This document shows positions 21,637-29,659 of a stretch of DNA of 64,000 nucleotides, one piece after another (the first letter of the stretch is position 1; every line of letters starts with the position of its first letter). This DNA comes from Flagellatimonas centrodinii (lineage in GTDB: Bacteria > Pseudomonadota > Gammaproteobacteria > Nevskiales > Nevskiaceae), in contig NZ_CP092104.1 in NCBI RefSeq assembly GCF_016918765.2, positions 1,240,001-1,304,000 on the forward strand. The letters are read 5' to 3'. A program made the position numbers and the translations under genes. The notes beneath the pieces were generated by a model. That model did not search any database. It saw only the letters and a list, made by a program, of their open reading frames with translations, and was not told the origin of the DNA.

Positions 21637-22158
21637 CTAGGGCGCAGCCGACATCAAACTGCCCAGCGGCGTCATGTCGCTGTTCACGCCCTGGCCGCGA
21701 TGTGGCATGCGCACGAACTCGTTCTGGGCGACGGCGTTCTCGCGCCTGAGCTGCTTCATCAGCTTCTCGCAGTCCTTGCGCCGTGCCTCGCACAAGGCAT
21801 CCATGTTGATCTGCTTGCCGGCGCCACTGCCGCTCACCGTACGCCGGATCACCGACGGATAGGCCACGTGATCTTCCGGCACGAACGACCACAGCACATT
21901 GCGTGTGCGGTCCTCCAACTGCAGCCAGCCGTCATCGTTGGTGCTGCGCCGCAGGCCGTCGCGCTGCAGCAGCTTCTCGTGCGCTTCTTCCACCGTGTAG
22001 AACCCCACCGGCGAAGTGGGGCCAATGTGCATCTCCAGCGTGGCCTGCTCAACCTGCGCCGACACCGCACAAGGCAGCAGCAATAGCCCGGCAGCCACGC
22101 CCTGAATAAGCGACGGGTGGGAACGAAAACATATTGGGGAATACCGATGCGAAGCCAT
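21637..22158 (-). CDS. Secreted hypothetical protein
   Basis: Translation from the ATG at 22158, with GGAGG five bases upstream, gives 173 residues. The N-terminal helix ends in AVSAQ, a typical Sec cleavage site, so the mature protein is periplasmic. It contains LEMHIGPTSPVGFYTVEEAHEKL and two cysteines (CEARRKDC) that could pair. I do not recognise it. The upstream 235 bases to the TonB-receptor stop contain only a terminator hairpin. Confidence 0.6.
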   Translation of the reverse strand: MASHRYSPICFRSHPSLIQGVAAGLLLLPCAVSAQVEQATLEMHIGPTSPVGFYTVEEAHEKLLQRDGLRRSTNDDGWLQLEDRTRNVLWSFVPEDHVAYPSVIRRTVSGSGAGKQINMDALCEARRKDCEKLMKQLRRENAVAQNEFVRMPHRGQGVNSDMTPLGSLMSAAP

Positions 22159-22353
22159 GGTCACCTCCAGACGGGGGCGCCCGGGCGGGCGCGGGAATGG
22201 CGCGTCTATTCTTTAAGACGACTTTTAGCGAAAAAGCCGCACATGGGGTGTGGGTATGGCGGGCGGGGCCCTCCGATCACCACCCTGCTTTACCGCTCGC
22301 GAAGACGGCTTTGCAGGGTGCCGACGCTGCCGCCGTCTGAACCCGGCATGGAG

Positions 22354-22394: not shown

Positions 22395-25300
22395 TCAACC
22401 GCCGAAGCCGATCCCCAGTTTCAGGGTCGGACCCTCGATCGTGCGGTCGTAGGTCTTGCGTTCTTCCACACCGCCATCAATGGCGTCGATGTAACGCTCC
22501 CAGCGGTAACCCGCCGACAGGCTCAGGCTGTTCACCCGATAGCTCAGCCCCAGCGTCGCGCCCACCATCGGCACCGTCTCCGAGGTGCTGCGGCGGGTGC
22601 CGGGCACAGTGCGTTCGGTAATGGTGGTCGGCGTTTGCGGCGGTTGTTGGAAGCCGCTAGCCTGCGTCGCCGTCCAGGCGTAGTACCACTCACTCTCCTC
22701 GCTGTCGGCAATGTCGGTGGTCTGACGACCGAACAGGGCCCCACCGCTCAACGACCAGTCCAGTTCCACCACACCCGACTGCGGGTTGCCGAACAATGGC
22801 GAGGCGGCACTCCAGGTCAGCAGCGGGCCGGTGCCGTCGAAGCCGCGCCGGGCATCAAAGTCGGCCTGATACACGGTGTGGGTCACCGGCCGCTGGCCGA
22901 CAAAGAAGACGTCGACATTCTCGGGAATCATCCAGTCCGGCACCCCTTCCAGCGCCGCCTGGGTCTGCGAGATCAAGCGCGCCCGCCGCACTGCCAGCTC
23001 GACACTGGACCGCGAGAAGGTGCTCAGCTCCAGATCCCGGCGGATCGCCACATCAAACAGACGATAGCTTTCGGAGGCCCGCATCTCGGCCGCCACCCGG
23101 TTGGTACGAGAATAACTCTGCAGATCGATCCAAATCGGCGCCGGAATAGGATTGGTGCACTGTGCCTCGAAGGAGCCGCCTACCAACGGGCAGAAGGGCT
23201 CGGTCTCCCAGGATGCGCCGCCCGCCACCGAGTGGCGCAGATTCCCCTGACGATAGCCCACCGACAGTGTCCACGGCCCCGCATCGGGCCGCCAGCCGAG
23301 CTTGATCTCGCGGGTCTGGCCCCAGCCCAGGTCGGCGCTCTGCACACCCTCAGCGATATCCAGCGGTCCGGAGAAGGCGTCATAGAAGGTCGGCAGCGCC
23401 GCCGTATTGTCAGCATCCACCCGTTGCACCTGCCCGCCCACTTCCAATTGCAGCGGCCAGCGATGACCCGCATCAAACCGCCGCCCGAAGTTCCCCAGGG
23501 TCGACCCACCGCCCCAGTTCTTGGTCACCCGCAGGCCGAACAGTCGCGGCTCGGTGAGGAAGATGTTGGTGGTCAGGCCGGTGTCGTCGGAATTGAGGAA
23601 GGCGCCGGAGATGGCGGTTTCATCAAACACGTTCTTCACATAGGCCATCACGTTCCAGCCCGAGGCTTCGTTCATGAAGATCGCCGCCACGTTGGCCGTG
23701 TAGTAGTCGTCCAGTCGACTGAACTCATGGTCGTTGAAGATGCGCCACCAGGATTCCGACTGCCAGTGCAGATCGGCATGCAGGGTCATCAGCCAGGCAT
23801 TGCCCAGCGGCAGGATGTAGTCGCCGGTCAGGGTCAGGGTGTAGTTGGGCGCATTCGGCAGTTCGTTGCCGGACAGGTCCTTCTCGAAGCCTTCACCGTT
23901 GTTGGGGGCGGTGGCGGGATCCCAGCCGGGATAGTTGGGGTGGAACTGCAGAGTCCCTGCCCCGCTGTCCTGTTCGGTCGGATCCGCCACGTAGGGCAGG
24001 TTGGTGACCGGGTCATTGCCGTTCAGATAGGCAATTTCGCAGCCGCCCGCTCTCCCCCCTCCAACGCCACCCAGGCCTGCGGGGCCCGGAACCCCATCTG
24101 TGGCCGGGTACTTGAGCCCGTCAAACAGCCACTCCGGAAGAATGCAACTGGAGGCATAGGTGGGGAACGGCCGCACCACCACCCAATCCTCGTTGCCGGC
24201 GGTGCGGTCCATCAGGTCGATGGCCTTCTCACCATCGCCGATACGGGTCTTCTGGTAGCCGCCCTTGAAGCCCAGCCGCAGGTTGTCCAGCGCATACCAG
24301 TCGGTCTCGAGTTCGAAGCCCCAGATTTCGGCATCAAAGTTCCGGTTGAAAGCGGAGCGATCGACGATCTCGGAGATCTGGTAGTCGTGGTAGTTGTAGT
24401 AGAACGCCGCCATGTTGACCGTCAGACGGCCATCCAGGAGGGTGTTCTTGGTACCAATTTCGTAGGCGTTGATGAACTCGGGCTCAAAGGTTCGCGGCCG
24501 CGTCGCCGAGACCGCGCCAAGTCCCTGTGCCTGGATCGGGTCGCCGTAGTAGGTGTAGACAAACCCCGGTGGGTTGGCCCCCCCCGCCTTGTAGCCACGG
24601 CTGAATGACCCGTACACCAGGGTCTCGTCAGTGAAGCCGAGATCGGGCTTCCAGTCGAGCACGATGCGGCCGGTGGGCTCGCGCCAGGTTTGCGAAATGA
24701 CTTCGGCGGTCGGGTAGCCGACCGTCAGAGACGCCAGGGTCCAGCTGGGGATGCGCGGGGCATCCTTTTCATCCTCCGACCAGCGCGCGCCCACCGTCAG
24801 CTTCAGGTCGGGCGTGATGTTGTAGTAGGCCTCGCCGAATATCGCCTGCGAGTGCAGGGTGTAGGGGTTGCGACTGAGGAAGTAGTTATGGCCCTTGTCA
24901 TTGAGACTGCCGATGGGGTTGGGATCAATGTAGACACACTGGATCACACCATAGACCTCCGCCGGATCGCCCGGCGCATAGCCATTGGGCAGGCAGACGC
25001 CGTTGTCGCTCACCCCTGCGACATACGGCAGACGTGTTGGGCCCGAAGTGCCACTACCCAAGGCCGCAATCAAGCTGATGGAGTTGAAGAAAACGTAGTA
25101 CTTGTCCTCCGTGGTATAGCGCAGATAGTTGGCGCCCAGACTGAAGTTGAACGGCCCGTCAAAGTCGGAGGCAATGCGCAGTTCCTGGCTGAATTGGCGC
25201 GATTCAGCGGTGGAGATATCCACCGCCACCAGACGATCGGAGCAGCCGAGTTGTGGGTCGCAGAAGATGCCGCCGTTCTCACCCTCCAGCAAAACACCCT

Positions 25301-26966
25301 CGCGAAAATTTACGCCCGGCGTAGAAGGGTTCTGCCAAGCCCCTGGTGCCGTATTGAAGCGGTTGAAGTCTTGTAGCGAGTAGACGAAATCATCGCTGTA
25401 GGACGTCTCCGAGCTCAAGGTCAATGCATCGGTCAACGCGACGTTGATCTGCAGTTCACCAACATCGGCCTTGGCGCGATACTCGGGATTGATGGTCGAT
25501 TCAATCGTCCGCAAATCGAGCTGCTGTGACGTACTGAGATAGGGATCATCCAAGGCAACCGGCAGGCTGATACCCGCGAGCGGGGCATAGTAGGGCAACA
25601 TCAAACCATTCGGCGTCTGGAATGATTCATTGGCATACAGTGAACCGCGCTTGCACCCTTGGCTCAGCGTGGCCTGCACACCTGAGAAGAGACTTGTTGG
25701 CTGTCCAGCCCCCGACAGGCGATCAAAGTAGTCAACATCAAAGCCGGCCACATTGGTGACAACATCCTTGTCACACAACTGCTTACCCGAACGCAGACGG
25801 TCGTCGTCTTCCTCGAAGTGCTCCCAGATCAGGTTGGCTTCAATGATGTCGTTGGGCTTGAACCGCAGCGAGGTGCGGGTGGACCACAGGTCCCGCCCGT
25901 CGATGGGGCTGTCGGTGATGGCGTTGTCGGCGTAGCCGTCACGCTTGGTCCAGGCGCCGGCAAAGCGTAGGGCCACGGTGTCTTCCACCAGCGGCAGGTT
26001 GATCATCTGCTCGATGCGGTGGCTGTTGTAGTTGCCCATGTCCACCGACGCGCGCGCTTCTGCGTAAAAACTCGGCTTGGCGGTGATCAGGTTCACCACC
26101 CCGGCGGTGGCATTGCGGCCATAGAGGGTGCCCTGCGGTCCGCGCAGTACCTCGATGCGCTCGAGATCGTAGAACTCCTGCTCGAAGAAACGGTTGCGGA
26201 CAAACGGGGTGTTGTTCATCGCCACCGCCACCGCCGGATCGGTCGTCGCCGAGATGGCCTGGGTGCCAATCCCGCGGATCTGGATCGAATAGCCCGAGAA
26301 GTTGGTCTTGGTGAACGTCATGTTCGGGACCTGGGTGATCAGGTCCGGCCCGCCTGCGATCTGACTTTTGGTCAGGTCTTCCATGCTGAAGGCACTGATG
26401 GCGATCGGCACGTCCTGCAGCCGCTCCGACTTCTTCTGTCCGGTGACAATGATCTCTTCCACCCCGGCGCGGCGGGCGATATCGACCTGACTGGTGCCGC
26501 CGGGTTCAGCGGTGGTGTCGACACGGGGATCAAACAGCTCACCGTTGGCGTTCGGATCGCTCGCCGCTTCTGTCGAGGCACTCGGGGCGGTGGTGTTGTC
26601 CGTAGCGATGACAAAAGGGCGTTCGGTGAGTTCACCCTGTTCCACCACGAAGGCATTGGGCGCCACACTCTTGTAGGTGAGGCCGGTGCCTTTGAGCATC
26701 TGGAACAGGGCTTCGGTGGCTTCGTATTCGCCGTTGAGCGCGTTGCTCTCGAAACCTTGGGCGGCTTCTTCCGGCACCAGAATTTCAAAGTCGGCCTGTA
26801 GCGCCAGCGTCTTGATGGCGCTAGCGGCGGGCTGCGACGGAATGTCGAACCGCTGCGTGCCTTGTGCGCTGGCCATTGCGGGCAGTAGGGCAGCGCAGAG
26901 CAGAGCAATGCGGAATGGCGCCTTGCGGCAGGCACGGAGCATCGTGCCCCAGTGTTGATTGATCAT
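22395..26966 (-). CDS. TonB-dependent receptor with STN signalling domain, fused to a second outer-membrane barrel
   Basis: The single 1523-residue frame reads in order: signal peptide ending MASAQ (about 1-35); an STN domain with FDIPSQPAASAIKTLALQAD (38-110) that in Fec-type systems talks to FecR; a TonB box region EEIIVTGQ (near 172); plug with RIEVLRGPQGTLYGRNA; and a receptor barrel whose natural end PRLFGLRVTKNW falls near 1148. About 370 further residues follow with no stop. They look like a complete second barrel: DARRGFDGTGPLLTW, ALFGRQT, GYRWERYID and a terminal GPTLKLGIGFGG resemble the Lpg1974/MOMP-like pore family. The ligand is unknown. The gene has its own ECF-type promoter just upstream. 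Confidence 0.9.
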   Translation of the reverse strand: MINQHWGTMLRACRKAPFRIALLCAALLPAMASAQGTQRFDIPSQPAASAIKTLALQADFEILVPEEAAQGFESNALNGEYEATEALFQMLKGTGLTYKSVAPNAFVVEQGELTERPFVIATDNTTAPSASTEAASDPNANGELFDPRVDTTAEPGGTSQVDIARRAGVEEIIVTGQKKSERLQDVPIAISAFSMEDLTKSQIAGGPDLITQVPNMTFTKTNFSGYSIQIRGIGTQAISATTDPAVAVAMNNTPFVRNRFFEQEFYDLERIEVLRGPQGTLYGRNATAGVVNLITAKPSFYAEARASVDMGNYNSHRIEQMINLPLVEDTVALRFAGAWTKRDGYADNAITDSPIDGRDLWSTRTSLRFKPNDIIEANLIWEHFEEDDDRLRSGKQLCDKDVVTNVAGFDVDYFDRLSGAGQPTSLFSGVQATLSQGCKRGSLYANESFQTPNGLMLPYYAPLAGISLPVALDDPYLSTSQQLDLRTIESTINPEYRAKADVGELQINVALTDALTLSSETSYSDDFVYSLQDFNRFNTAPGAWQNPSTPGVNFREGVLLEGENGGIFCDPQLGCSDRLVAVDISTAESRQFSQELRIASDFDGPFNFSLGANYLRYTTEDKYYVFFNSISLIAALGSGTSGPTRLPYVAGVSDNGVCLPNGYAPGDPAEVYGVIQCVYIDPNPIGSLNDKGHNYFLSRNPYTLHSQAIFGEAYYNITPDLKLTVGARWSEDEKDAPRIPSWTLASLTVGYPTAEVISQTWREPTGRIVLDWKPDLGFTDETLVYGSFSRGYKAGGANPPGFVYTYYGDPIQAQGLGAVSATRPRTFEPEFINAYEIGTKNTLLDGRLTVNMAAFYYNYHDYQISEIVDRSAFNRNFDAEIWGFELETDWYALDNLRLGFKGGYQKTRIGDGEKAIDLMDRTAGNEDWVVVRPFPTYASSCILPEWLFDGLKYPATDGVPGPAGLGGVGGGRAGGCEIAYLNGNDPVTNLPYVADPTEQDSGAGTLQFHPNYPGWDPATAPNNGEGFEKDLSGNELPNAPNYTLTLTGDYILPLGNAWLMTLHADLHWQSESWWRIFNDHEFSRLDDYYTANVAAIFMNEASGWNVMAYVKNVFDETAISGAFLNSDDTGLTTNIFLTEPRLFGLRVTKNWGGGSTLGNFGRRFDAGHRWPLQLEVGGQVQRVDADNTAALPTFYDAFSGPLDIAEGVQSADLGWGQTREIKLGWRPDAGPWTLSVGYRQGNLRHSVAGGASWETEPFCPLVGGSFEAQCTNPIPAPIWIDLQSYSRTNRVAAEMRASESYRLFDVAIRRDLELSTFSRSSVELAVRRARLISQTQAALEGVPDWMIPENVDVFFVGQRPVTHTVYQADFDARRGFDGTGPLLTWSAASPLFGNPQSGVVELDWSLSGGALFGRQTTDIADSEESEWYYAWTATQASGFQQPPQTPTTITERTVPGTRRSTSETVPMVGATLGLSYRVNSLSLSAGYRWERYIDAIDGGVEERKTYDRTIEGPTLKLGIGFGG

Positions 26967-27221: not shown

Positions 27222-27635
27222 TCAGCACTCGAACGGGTTGACGACGGGCGTCGGCAGGTCGTCGAAGTGGCGGAGGTTGCGGGTGGCCAGGGTGGCGCGG
27301 CGGGCGATGGCGATGCCGGCAATCTGGGTGTCCCGTATATCGACCGGACGGCCATCGCCGCGGCGGCGTGCGGCAAGCCGGGTGGCGGCGAGGGCAGCGG
27401 CTTCGTCGAAGGCGACAATGCGGCCTTGCAGGTCGTCCGCCAGCACCTGGTTGAAGCGCTGTTCCAAGGCTTTGCGGCGGCGGCCCGCTGGCAACAACTC
27501 CAGGCCCATCTGCGCTTCGAACAGGGTGATGCTGGTGAGCCAGATCCTGGCGGCATCCTGCTGATTCAACCACGCGACGACGGCGGCCTCGCCGGCCATC
27601 AGGCCTGACAGGACGTTGGTATCGAGCAGAATCAC
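27222..27635 (-). CDS. PIN-domain ribonuclease toxin (VapC/FitB type)
   Basis: The 137-residue protein opens with MILLDTNVLSGLM, the first acidic residue of the PIN active site (Asp5). It continues with an acidic Glu in TLFEAQMGLELL (about 40), the DIRDTQIAGIA segment (Asp near 99-102) and TRNLRHFDDL. These are the usual metal-binding carboxylates of VapC/FitB toxins, which cut RNA. The start overlaps the antitoxin stop by four bases, the standard toxin-antitoxin arrangement. Confidence 0.9.
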   Translation of the reverse strand: MILLDTNVLSGLMAGEAAVVAWLNQQDAARIWLTSITLFEAQMGLELLPAGRRRKALEQRFNQVLADDLQGRIVAFDEAAALAATRLAARRRGDGRPVDIRDTQIAGIAIARRATLATRNLRHFDDLPTPVVNPFEC

Positions 27636-27880
27636 GGCCCGAATGATGCGGGTTCGGCTTCCTCGCCTCGCAGCTCGGGCAGGCCCTCAGTGAAATTCAG
27701 ACCTTTGAAGCGGGCGGCAATGCGATCGCCCAACGGCGATTCCGGCACATCGCCGCGACTGACTGCGGTGCGCAGAATGTGCCGGACCTCGGCCTCCATG
27801 CTGCGGCCATGGTGGGCGGCCCGGCGTTTGAGTTCCCGCTTGATATCGTCATCAAGGTTGCGGACGGTGAACTGGGCCAT
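27632..27880 (-). CDS. FitA/VapB-like ribbon-helix-helix antitoxin
   Basis: From the ATG at 27880 (CGGAG about six bases upstream) it encodes 82 residues. The N-terminal QFTVRNLDDDIKRELKRRAA followed by GRSMEAEVRHILR is the FitA-type ribbon-helix-helix DNA-binding domain. The C-terminal half, with FKGLNFTEGLPE, is the expected toxin-binding tail. It should neutralise the PIN toxin and repress its own operon through the palindrome at 27899-27918. Confidence 0.9.
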   Translation of the reverse strand: MAQFTVRNLDDDIKRELKRRAAHHGRSMEAEVRHILRTAVSRGDVPESPLGDRIAARFKGLNFTEGLPELRGEEAEPASFGP

Positions 27881-27944: not shown

Positions 27945-29108
27945 TCAATGCACTCGCTCGCCCAAGTCCACGGCGCTGGGGAAGCCCTCGGCGGTGAGGG
28001 TGCCGCCGTCGAGGGTGGTGACGGCCGGCACCAGCAACAGGCTGCGCTCGGCGGCGAGGGTTTTCACCGGGAACGAGCTGCGCAGGGCGTCGACAAAGGT
28101 TTCGGCGCGGCCAGCGCGGAACACGCCGGTGATGCGGACCGCGGCCAGGGTGGGGTCGAGCACCACCAACTGCACCGGCGAGTAGCGGTTGACCTCGCGG
28201 ATGACATCGGCGAGGCGTTCGTTTTCGAACACCAGGCGGCCGTTGAGCCAGGCAGTGGCGCGCTCGAGGTTGGCGGTATGGCGTTCGCTGATGCCCGTGG
28301 GGGTGATGTTCAGTTGCTGGCCCGGGGTCAGGACGTGAGGGGTGCGGGGTGAGGGGTGAGGGGAGACGCCTTCGGCGTCGGGAATCGGGAATCGGGAATC
28401 GGGAATCGTGGCGGCGCGGTTGGCGACCGCGGGCGGTGCTGCGGAGGTGAGGGCGGCGACTTCGACTTTGCCTTCGATGAGGGTGACCTGCACGTCGTCA
28501 CCCTTGCGGTAGACATCGAAGGCGGTGCCGAGGGCGCGGATGAGGCCGTTGCCGGCTTCCACTTCAAACGGGCGCAACACGGCGTGTGCCACCTTGAAGT
28601 GTGCCTGGCCGCGTTCCAGCACCACCCGCCGGGTGCGCAGGCCGTACTCGACGCGGATGGCGGTGTCGGTGTTGAGGGTGACGCTGCTGCCATCGGCCAG
28701 CGAGATGGTGTGACGGTCGCCAGGGTCGGTGCGGTACACCCGGTGCTGCAGTGGCATCAGGGTGAAGGTAAGGGCCACCGCCAGCGCGGCGGCAACGCCG
28801 GCGGCCAGCCCGGCACGACGGCGACGCACGCGCCGCCGCCCGCGGGTGCTGGCGGCCTCGCGAGAGGCATCGACGGCGGCACGGCGTTCAGCCGCCACTG
28901 GCGGCAGGTCGGCGACATGGTCGAGTTGTTGCCAGAGGGCCAGCAGATCCTGCCAGGCCTTTTCGTGGCGCGGGTCTTCGGCCAGCCAGCGTTGGTGCGC
29001 GGCGCGGTCGCGGTCGCTGCAGCGGTCGGATTGCAGGCGCGCAAACCAGGTGGCGGCCTGTTCATCGGCGGCGCTCAGACGCGGGTCGACGTGGGTCTGC
29101 GTGTTCAT
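27945..29108 (-). CDS. fecR: FecR-family anti-sigma/transmembrane sensor
   Basis: I take the ATG at 29108, which overlaps the sigma-factor stop as ATGA (387 residues). The cytoplasmic N-terminus has ADEQAATWFARLQSD and a W-rich WLAEDPRHEKAWQDLLALW typical of FecR. One transmembrane helix follows (about 100-122, after an RRRVRRRR basic patch). The periplasmic FecR domain has YRTDPGDRHTISLADGSSVTLN and GTAFDVYRKGDDVQVTLIEGKV, and an STN-like C-terminal module follows. It relays the state of the receptor to the sigma factor. About 25 residues near 240-265 (SRFPIPDAEGVSPHPSPRTP) are encoded by a repeat element inserted in frame. Confidence 0.92.
   Translation of the reverse strand: MNTQTHVDPRLSAADEQAATWFARLQSDRCSDRDRAAHQRWLAEDPRHEKAWQDLLALWQQLDHVADLPPVAAERRAAVDASREAASTRGRRRVRRRRAGLAAGVAAALAVALTFTLMPLQHRVYRTDPGDRHTISLADGSSVTLNTDTAIRVEYGLRTRRVVLERGQAHFKVAHAVLRPFEVEAGNGLIRALGTAFDVYRKGDDVQVTLIEGKVEVAALTSAAPPAVANRAATIPDSRFPIPDAEGVSPHPSPRTPHVLTPGQQLNITPTGISERHTANLERATAWLNGRLVFENERLADVIREVNRYSPVQLVVLDPTLAAVRITGVFRAGRAETFVDALRSSFPVKTLAAERSLLLVPAVTTLDGGTLTAEGFPSAVDLGERVH
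28335..28408. repeat. 7-bp tandem repeats flanking a hairpin, inside fecR
   Basis: Four 7-bp units of GTGAGGG type (28335-28362, one variant GTGCGGG) are followed by a perfect hairpin GACGCC-TTC-GGCGTC (28365-28379) and four exact CGGGAAT units (28379-28406). The whole 74-base block lies inside fecR without breaking the frame. The composition is unlike the rest of the gene and like non-coding repeats. Confidence 0.8.
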
Positions 29109-29659
29109 GGCGTGGGTGGCCACTGGGCCCGCAGGTGTTTGAGGGCGTGAATCATGTGCTTTTCTATGGCGCTCACCGACACGCCGAAACGCTGGGCAAT
29201 TTCGGAATAGCTCAGGCCTTCATATTTGTTGAGCAGCAATACGGCGCGGCATTTGGGGGTGAGGCCGCTCATCATCTGCATCACCTGGGCCAGGGCTTCG
29301 CGTTGCTCGTAAGCGGCTTCGAGGCTTTCCGGGTCTTCCAGCCGCTCGGCTTCGTCGTCGAGATTGACGTGCTGCGTCTGGTGGCGCACGGCGTTGCGGC
29401 GGATCTGGTCCTTGAGCACATTCGCCGCTACCCGGAAGACGAAGCCCTGCGGTTCCCACAGTTCGGCGCTGGTGTCGCGGCGGCTGATCTTGATGAAGAC
29501 ATCCTGGGTGAGGTCTTCGGCATCGGAACCGGTGAAGCCGCGGCGTTCGAAATAGCGCACGAGCGCCGGCCGAAAGCGCTGATAGAGCGCCTCCACCTCT
29601 GCATCCGCCAGTCCCAACCGCCGCTTGCCGTCGCGGTGATGGGGTGCCATGTCGGCCAT
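29105..29659 (-). CDS. ECF sigma factor, FecI-like
   Basis: The 184-residue protein contains region 2 (ALYQRFRPALVRYFERRGFTGSDAEDLTQDVFIKI split, about 24-58, with the polymerase-binding DAEDLTQDVF) and region 4 (LTPKCRAVLLLNKYEGLSYSEIA, then SVSAIEKHMIHAL, about 132-175), which binds the -35 element. GGAG stands six bases before the ATG at 29659. The stop overlaps fecR. It is expected to drive its own gene and the receptor gene, both of which have the same promoter motif. Confidence 0.93.
   Translation of the reverse strand: MADMAPHHRDGKRRLGLADAEVEALYQRFRPALVRYFERRGFTGSDAEDLTQDVFIKISRRDTSAELWEPQGFVFRVAANVLKDQIRRNAVRHQTQHVNLDDEAERLEDPESLEAAYEQREALAQVMQMMSGLTPKCRAVLLLNKYEGLSYSEIAQRFGVSVSAIEKHMIHALKHLRAQWPPTP

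Follow-up and report, generated by a model that had tools for sequence, protein, structure and literature searches.

A signalling TonB-dependent receptor fused to a predicted second outer-membrane barrel in Flagellatimonas centrodinii

In the 64,000-nucleotide stretch of Flagellatimonas centrodinii DNA analysed here (the window), a gene for a TonB-dependent receptor (TBDR) runs on for several hundred codons past the natural end of its receptor barrel. This raises the question of whether one chain carries two outer-membrane barrels and, if so, what the second would do for the first. The gene occupies positions 22395-26966 on the minus strand and is one open frame of 1,523 codons (ORF and translation check), in which an STN domain, a plug, a full TBDR barrel and a 372-residue tail follow one another:

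26862-26966, minus strand: signal peptide region, residues 1-35, recognised by inspection, with cleavage likely after ...PAMASA (MINQHWGTMLRACRKAPFRIALLCAALLPAMASAQ)
26637-26861, minus strand: STN signalling domain, residues ~36-110 (Pfam STN PF07660; FecA N-terminal profile of NCBIfam)
26097-26420, minus strand: TonB-dependent receptor plug, residues 183-290 (Pfam PF07715, E = 3.8e-15)
23514-26066, minus strand: receptor beta-barrel, residues ~301-1151, with the natural last strand LRVTKNW (Pfam PF00593, unfused homologues, Foldseek)
23454-23513, minus strand: Gly-rich linker, residues 1152-1171, conserved in four paralogues as FGxR....[HY]R[FW]PL (alignment)
22398-23453, minus strand: predicted second barrel domain of about 10 strands, residues 1172-1523 (AlphaFold2 in context, indel placement, PF05150 C-terminal match)

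The first part of the chain is a TonB-dependent receptor, with PF07715 and PF00593 both above cut-off (the latter best over residues 592-955) and Foldseek matches to solved TBDRs. It is also of the FecA transducer type: FecI and FecR genes are adjacent, the FecA N-terminal region is matched by NCBIfam, and STN lies where expected at residues 62-108, with a score (27.6 bits) slightly below the cut-off of 28.4. The signalling domain ahead of the barrels, proposed in the initial annotation, is thus found in place, and so are the aromatic end that it set near residue 1148 (RVTKNW, residues 1146-1151, with the W codon at 23514-23516) and the roughly 370 further residues in frame. As it also held, inspection of the sequence at the start of the tail reveals no signal peptide; a Gly-rich stretch stands there instead (GGGSTLGNFGRRFDAGHRWPLQLEVGG).

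Three further full-length fused genes are present in the same genome (3.6 Mb, two contigs), each as one open frame and at a separate locus:

C1:640310-644785: fused paralogue, 90% identical to the window copy
C1:656740-661281: fused paralogue, 63% identical to the window copy
C1:1459948-1464267: fused paralogue, 58% identical to the window copy

Receptor, junction and tail are the same in all four genes (junction sequences of the three further copies: LRVTKNWGGGSTLGNFGRRFDAGHRWPL, LRVTKNWNGSGVIRGFGARRPADHRFPL and LRVTKHWNGDGLLGNFGARRGSDYRFPL), which confirms the earlier proposal of a receptor fused to a further outer-membrane-protein-like tail and indicates a real design rather than an error. 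The tail evolves faster than the receptor (43-99% identity among the four copies) and is under purifying selection (dN/dS 0.34-0.45 between divergent copies, with dS near saturation). In a tree built from the receptor barrel alone the fused genes form one clade with support of 100/100, hence a single fusion was most likely followed by duplication to four copies. The window copy and its 90% relative (L009, 3308-7972) make up a mosaic pair. Identity at the DNA level is 98-99% for plug and tail but only 47% for the STN region, a block around residues 1041-1400 reaches 97-100%, and the barrel loops are patchy. This pattern suggests gene conversion together with an exchange of signalling domains, and different signalling partners.

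The genes next to the window receptor are consistent with a transducer:

27945-29123, minus strand: FecR-type anti-sigma regulator (Pfam FecR PF04773, E = 9e-22)
29105-29659, minus strand: FecI-type ECF sigma factor (Pfam Sigma70_r2 and r4)
21637-22164, minus strand: small secreted companion protein of 175 aa directly downstream of the receptor, with no Pfam family

FecI and FecR genes adjoin every one of the four fused genes, the locus at C1:656740 being recognised by sequence only. Several other neighbours were noted. A FitA-like antitoxin and a PIN-domain toxin form a pair between FecR and the fused receptor (window 27222-27880). A 162-aa protein 59% identical to the small secreted protein, likewise with no Pfam family, follows an unfused TBDR paralogue (L022, 6646-7134), and DUF1302 and DUF1329 genes follow one fused paralogue (L079, 3179-11386). 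In two other genomes of the same phylum (L086, 2855-7724, and L087, 7419-12537) homologous TBDRs adjoin queC- and queD-like genes, and L086 has a queE-like gene as well; the ligand of these two receptors is perhaps queuosine-related.

The structure of the tail was predicted with AlphaFold2 (AF2) from residues 330-1523 and an alignment of 26 sequences. In this context the tail forms about 10 long antiparallel strands arranged up and down. The mean pLDDT is 74, and most strands of the tail score 66-89; the alignment behind the tail values comprises four sequences, of which two are almost identical. Modelled on its own from the four sequences, it folds poorly (pLDDT 36), though with a similar strand layout, and this model was left out of the fold search, which gave no match peculiar to the tail; the AlphaFold check proposed in the initial annotation is favourable for the tail in context and unfavourable for the tail alone. 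If we read the model as ten spanning strands, the inner turns comprise 2-6 residues and the outer connections 14-35, and 11 of the 12 indel columns among the paralogues fall in predicted outer loops. Such an even number of strands would leave both ends of the tail in the periplasm, as the position of the receptor C-terminus demands. In a simple amphipathicity test the tail could not be clearly told from shuffled sequences, and neither could the receptor barrel. The last tail strand, TLKLGIGF-GG, has an alternation like that of outer-membrane proteins; the chain ends in F-G-G, with no terminal aromatic residue, and the motif resembles a terminal barrel signal to which two glycines have been added. 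Of the two complete barrels claimed earlier, that of the receptor is complete, and for the second we infer closure from the strand pattern and turns of the model. Two barrels in one chain is, on these predictions, the probable architecture.

We favour, with a probability of roughly 0.7, the explanation that the protein is a FecA-type transducer to which a second barrel has been joined as a tethered partner. A transducer with STN, plug and 22-strand barrel, served by the adjacent FecI and FecR, would have gained at its natural C-terminus, once in this lineage, an outer-membrane barrel of about ten strands, and the fused gene would then have multiplied to four. With both tail termini in the periplasm, the long strands are predicted to extend to the cell surface, as are loops 1, 3 and 5. 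Placed beside the receptor, the second barrel might capture ligand and hand it over at the surface, or give it a path of entry; once bound, the ligand would be taken up in a TonB-dependent manner and would induce expression through STN, FecR and FecI. The partner role itself is tentative, and we hold it at slightly less than even odds.

A competing explanation treats the second barrel as a plain diffusion pore of the MOMP/Lpg1974 kind, which rides on the receptor and admits a small co-substrate or breakdown products of the ligand, so that fusion merely fixes stoichiometry and location. The tail alone scores 26.6 bits against Legionella_OMP (PF05150; cut-off 25.4), and the whole protein 23.3 bits, below the cut-off. 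The C-terminal match recurs in all four tails at E <= 1 (best 3.5e-6), in two of them just above the Pfam cut-off, and in a joint alignment GxGP, GALFG, LGLSYxV..xxxGYR and xGP fall at positions common to the tail and standalone PF05150 proteins, correspondences that we consider plausible. However, the match covers only profile positions 197-277 of 281, that is, the C-terminal third of the profile and the last 70 residues of the tail, and hhalign of the tail against standalone members returns a probability of 6%. The MOMP/Lpg1974 likeness claimed in the initial annotation hence holds for a short C-terminal stretch, the rest of the profile being unmatched; PF05150 does not extend over the tail as a whole profile, and kinship to the family is at most weakly suggested. 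Legionella MOMP/Lpg1974 proteins resemble the tail in this 70-residue motif region and in being all-strand (for the tail by prediction), whereas most of the tail lies outside significant similarity, and two standalone members identified in this analysis have 279 and 317 aa compared with about 370 aa for the tail, which has no signal peptide of its own. Moreover, conservation is higher in outer loops 1 and 5 (15/35 and 8/15; motifs DAFxGxLDI and DAIDGG) than in the strands (37%), which is not as expected of a plain pore. We therefore regard the pore as unlikely, yet credible enough to be taken seriously.

The tethered-partner explanation can also be viewed against the unfused paralogues. The genome holds seven autotransporter beta-domain genes, each on the same strand as an unfused TBDR paralogue and downstream of it:

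G000:C1 at about 1118000, 1317000, 393000, 912000, 1069000, 242500 and 2243000: the seven autotransporter loci (L012-L018)

At most loci no more than about 60 bases separate receptor and autotransporter gene. L014 has a small secreted gene between the two, and its autotransporter frame was pieced together by position only. The seven receptors belong to one sister clade of the fused receptors. Since the autotransporter genes share ancestry with their receptors, the loci are not independent events; the linkage has nonetheless been kept. At three homologous loci of other genomes (L082, L083 and L085) sigma factor, FecR and receptor follow one another in the same or nearly the same order, and inspection of these loci revealed no obvious autotransporter gene. 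The unfused pairs have the same receptor family and a second barrel in the same place as the fused copies, but there the second barrel is encoded on its own, carries a signal peptide and shows no detectable sequence relationship to the tail. The autotransporter profile PF03797 matches none of the four tails, and an origin of the tail from the autotransporter barrels of this genome finds no support (hhalign probability 0.4%). The constant position of these genes implies that receptors of this family recurrently have a second barrel, either separate or fused, and the autotransporter-barrel protein may do the job of the fused tail in the sister clade. A broader proposal would make the whole family a two-barrel surface device, its second barrel supplied in trans at the seven loci and in cis at the four, which captures ligand or opens a path closed to the plugged receptor; we consider this distinctly unlikely.

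The tail might instead be a non-barrel beta domain at the surface or in the periplasm, for instance a beta-sandwich or solenoid serving adhesion or docking. The poor stand-alone model, the weak family evidence and the length of the strands are compatible with such a domain. They have to be set against the context model, in which long antiparallel strands are joined by short turns on the inner side and by long, variable loops on the outer, against the matching of an outer-membrane protein family and against a C-terminal strand resembling a beta-signal, and we judge this possibility decidedly improbable.

It is also conceivable that the strands of the tail join those of the receptor in a single larger barrel, enlarging or completing it, as they are directly contiguous in one chain. 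However, 11 other paralogues in the genome end at the junction without a tail, as do homologues in other genomes, which have 42-50% identity; the last or nearly last residue of these unfused relatives is usually F or W. Alignment with them indicates that every receptor strand is retained in the fused copies, where the Gly-rich linker then follows, and the receptor part matches the normal TBDR structures FyuA, PiuA and FecA over about 830 columns (Foldseek). The receptor barrel is therefore supported as complete without the tail, and a single enlarged barrel seems very improbable. Finally, a sequencing or assembly error that joined two genes, such as one hiding a stop near 23510, has next to no chance of explaining four copies at separate loci with a common junction, divergent tails and a tail start that lacks a signal peptide.

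Among the approximately 800 genomes sampled, the tail is present in this genome alone. Sequence searches detected none in 60 relatives, and profile searches of three overlapping samples (order, 85 genomes; class, 369; phylum, 398) none beyond chance matches. The search for the fusion in other genomes suggested in the initial annotation has thus yielded three more copies within the same genome and no tail in any other sampled one. We attribute two weak profile matches (L073 and L074) to chance; they represent an 802-aa usher-like protein and a 134-codon short frame. A scan of genome contigs, covering close relatives only, gave one spurious match: in a Bradyrhizobium MAG (L027) the matched region was read in ordinary soluble-enzyme genes. 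The tail was not found in plasmids, had no match in PHROGs and, as a profile, none among PDB sequences. The two other genomes of the same genus are without close members even of the receptor family.

Multi-barrel outer-membrane proteins have been predicted and little tested, and this genome offers matched controls: four fused receptors, seven with a separate downstream barrel gene and four with neither. The fused chain holds two end-of-barrel signals, the internal RVTKNW and the terminal TLKLGIGF, and could hence reveal how the BAM machinery handles a second barrel on one chain; the fused receptors could also show whether joining a transporter and a partner barrel alters uptake or signalling. 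Multi-barrel proteins are reportedly described by Solan et al. (PNAS, 2021) as products of lineage-specific fusions, an origin that fits the present receptor.

Compared with FecA-type transducers that work with FecI and FecR, the window receptor has the same STN, plug and 22-strand barrel and the same adjacent ECF sigma and anti-sigma genes, but adds a predicted second membrane barrel after the normal C-terminus. It resembles GfcD/YjbH, for which two outer-membrane barrels are predicted in one chain and whose descriptions cite a catalogue of multi-barrel proteins (PMC8592465, PMC11494523). Because such chains are already known, the earlier claim that two barrels would need unusual assembly by BAM was overstated. 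GfcD has barrels of 12 and 13 strands with a periplasmic domain between them and no plug, STN or TonB link (PMC8592465, PMC11494523), whereas the present chain has a TBDR as its first barrel and a linker of about 20 residues; no GfcD/YjbH-type domain was matched in the window receptor by Pfam or NCBIfam. The catalogue of Solan et al. (2021) aside, the predicted joining of a signalling TBDR to another barrel looks new among the rare multi-barrel outer-membrane proteins and sets this receptor apart from GfcD/YjbH.
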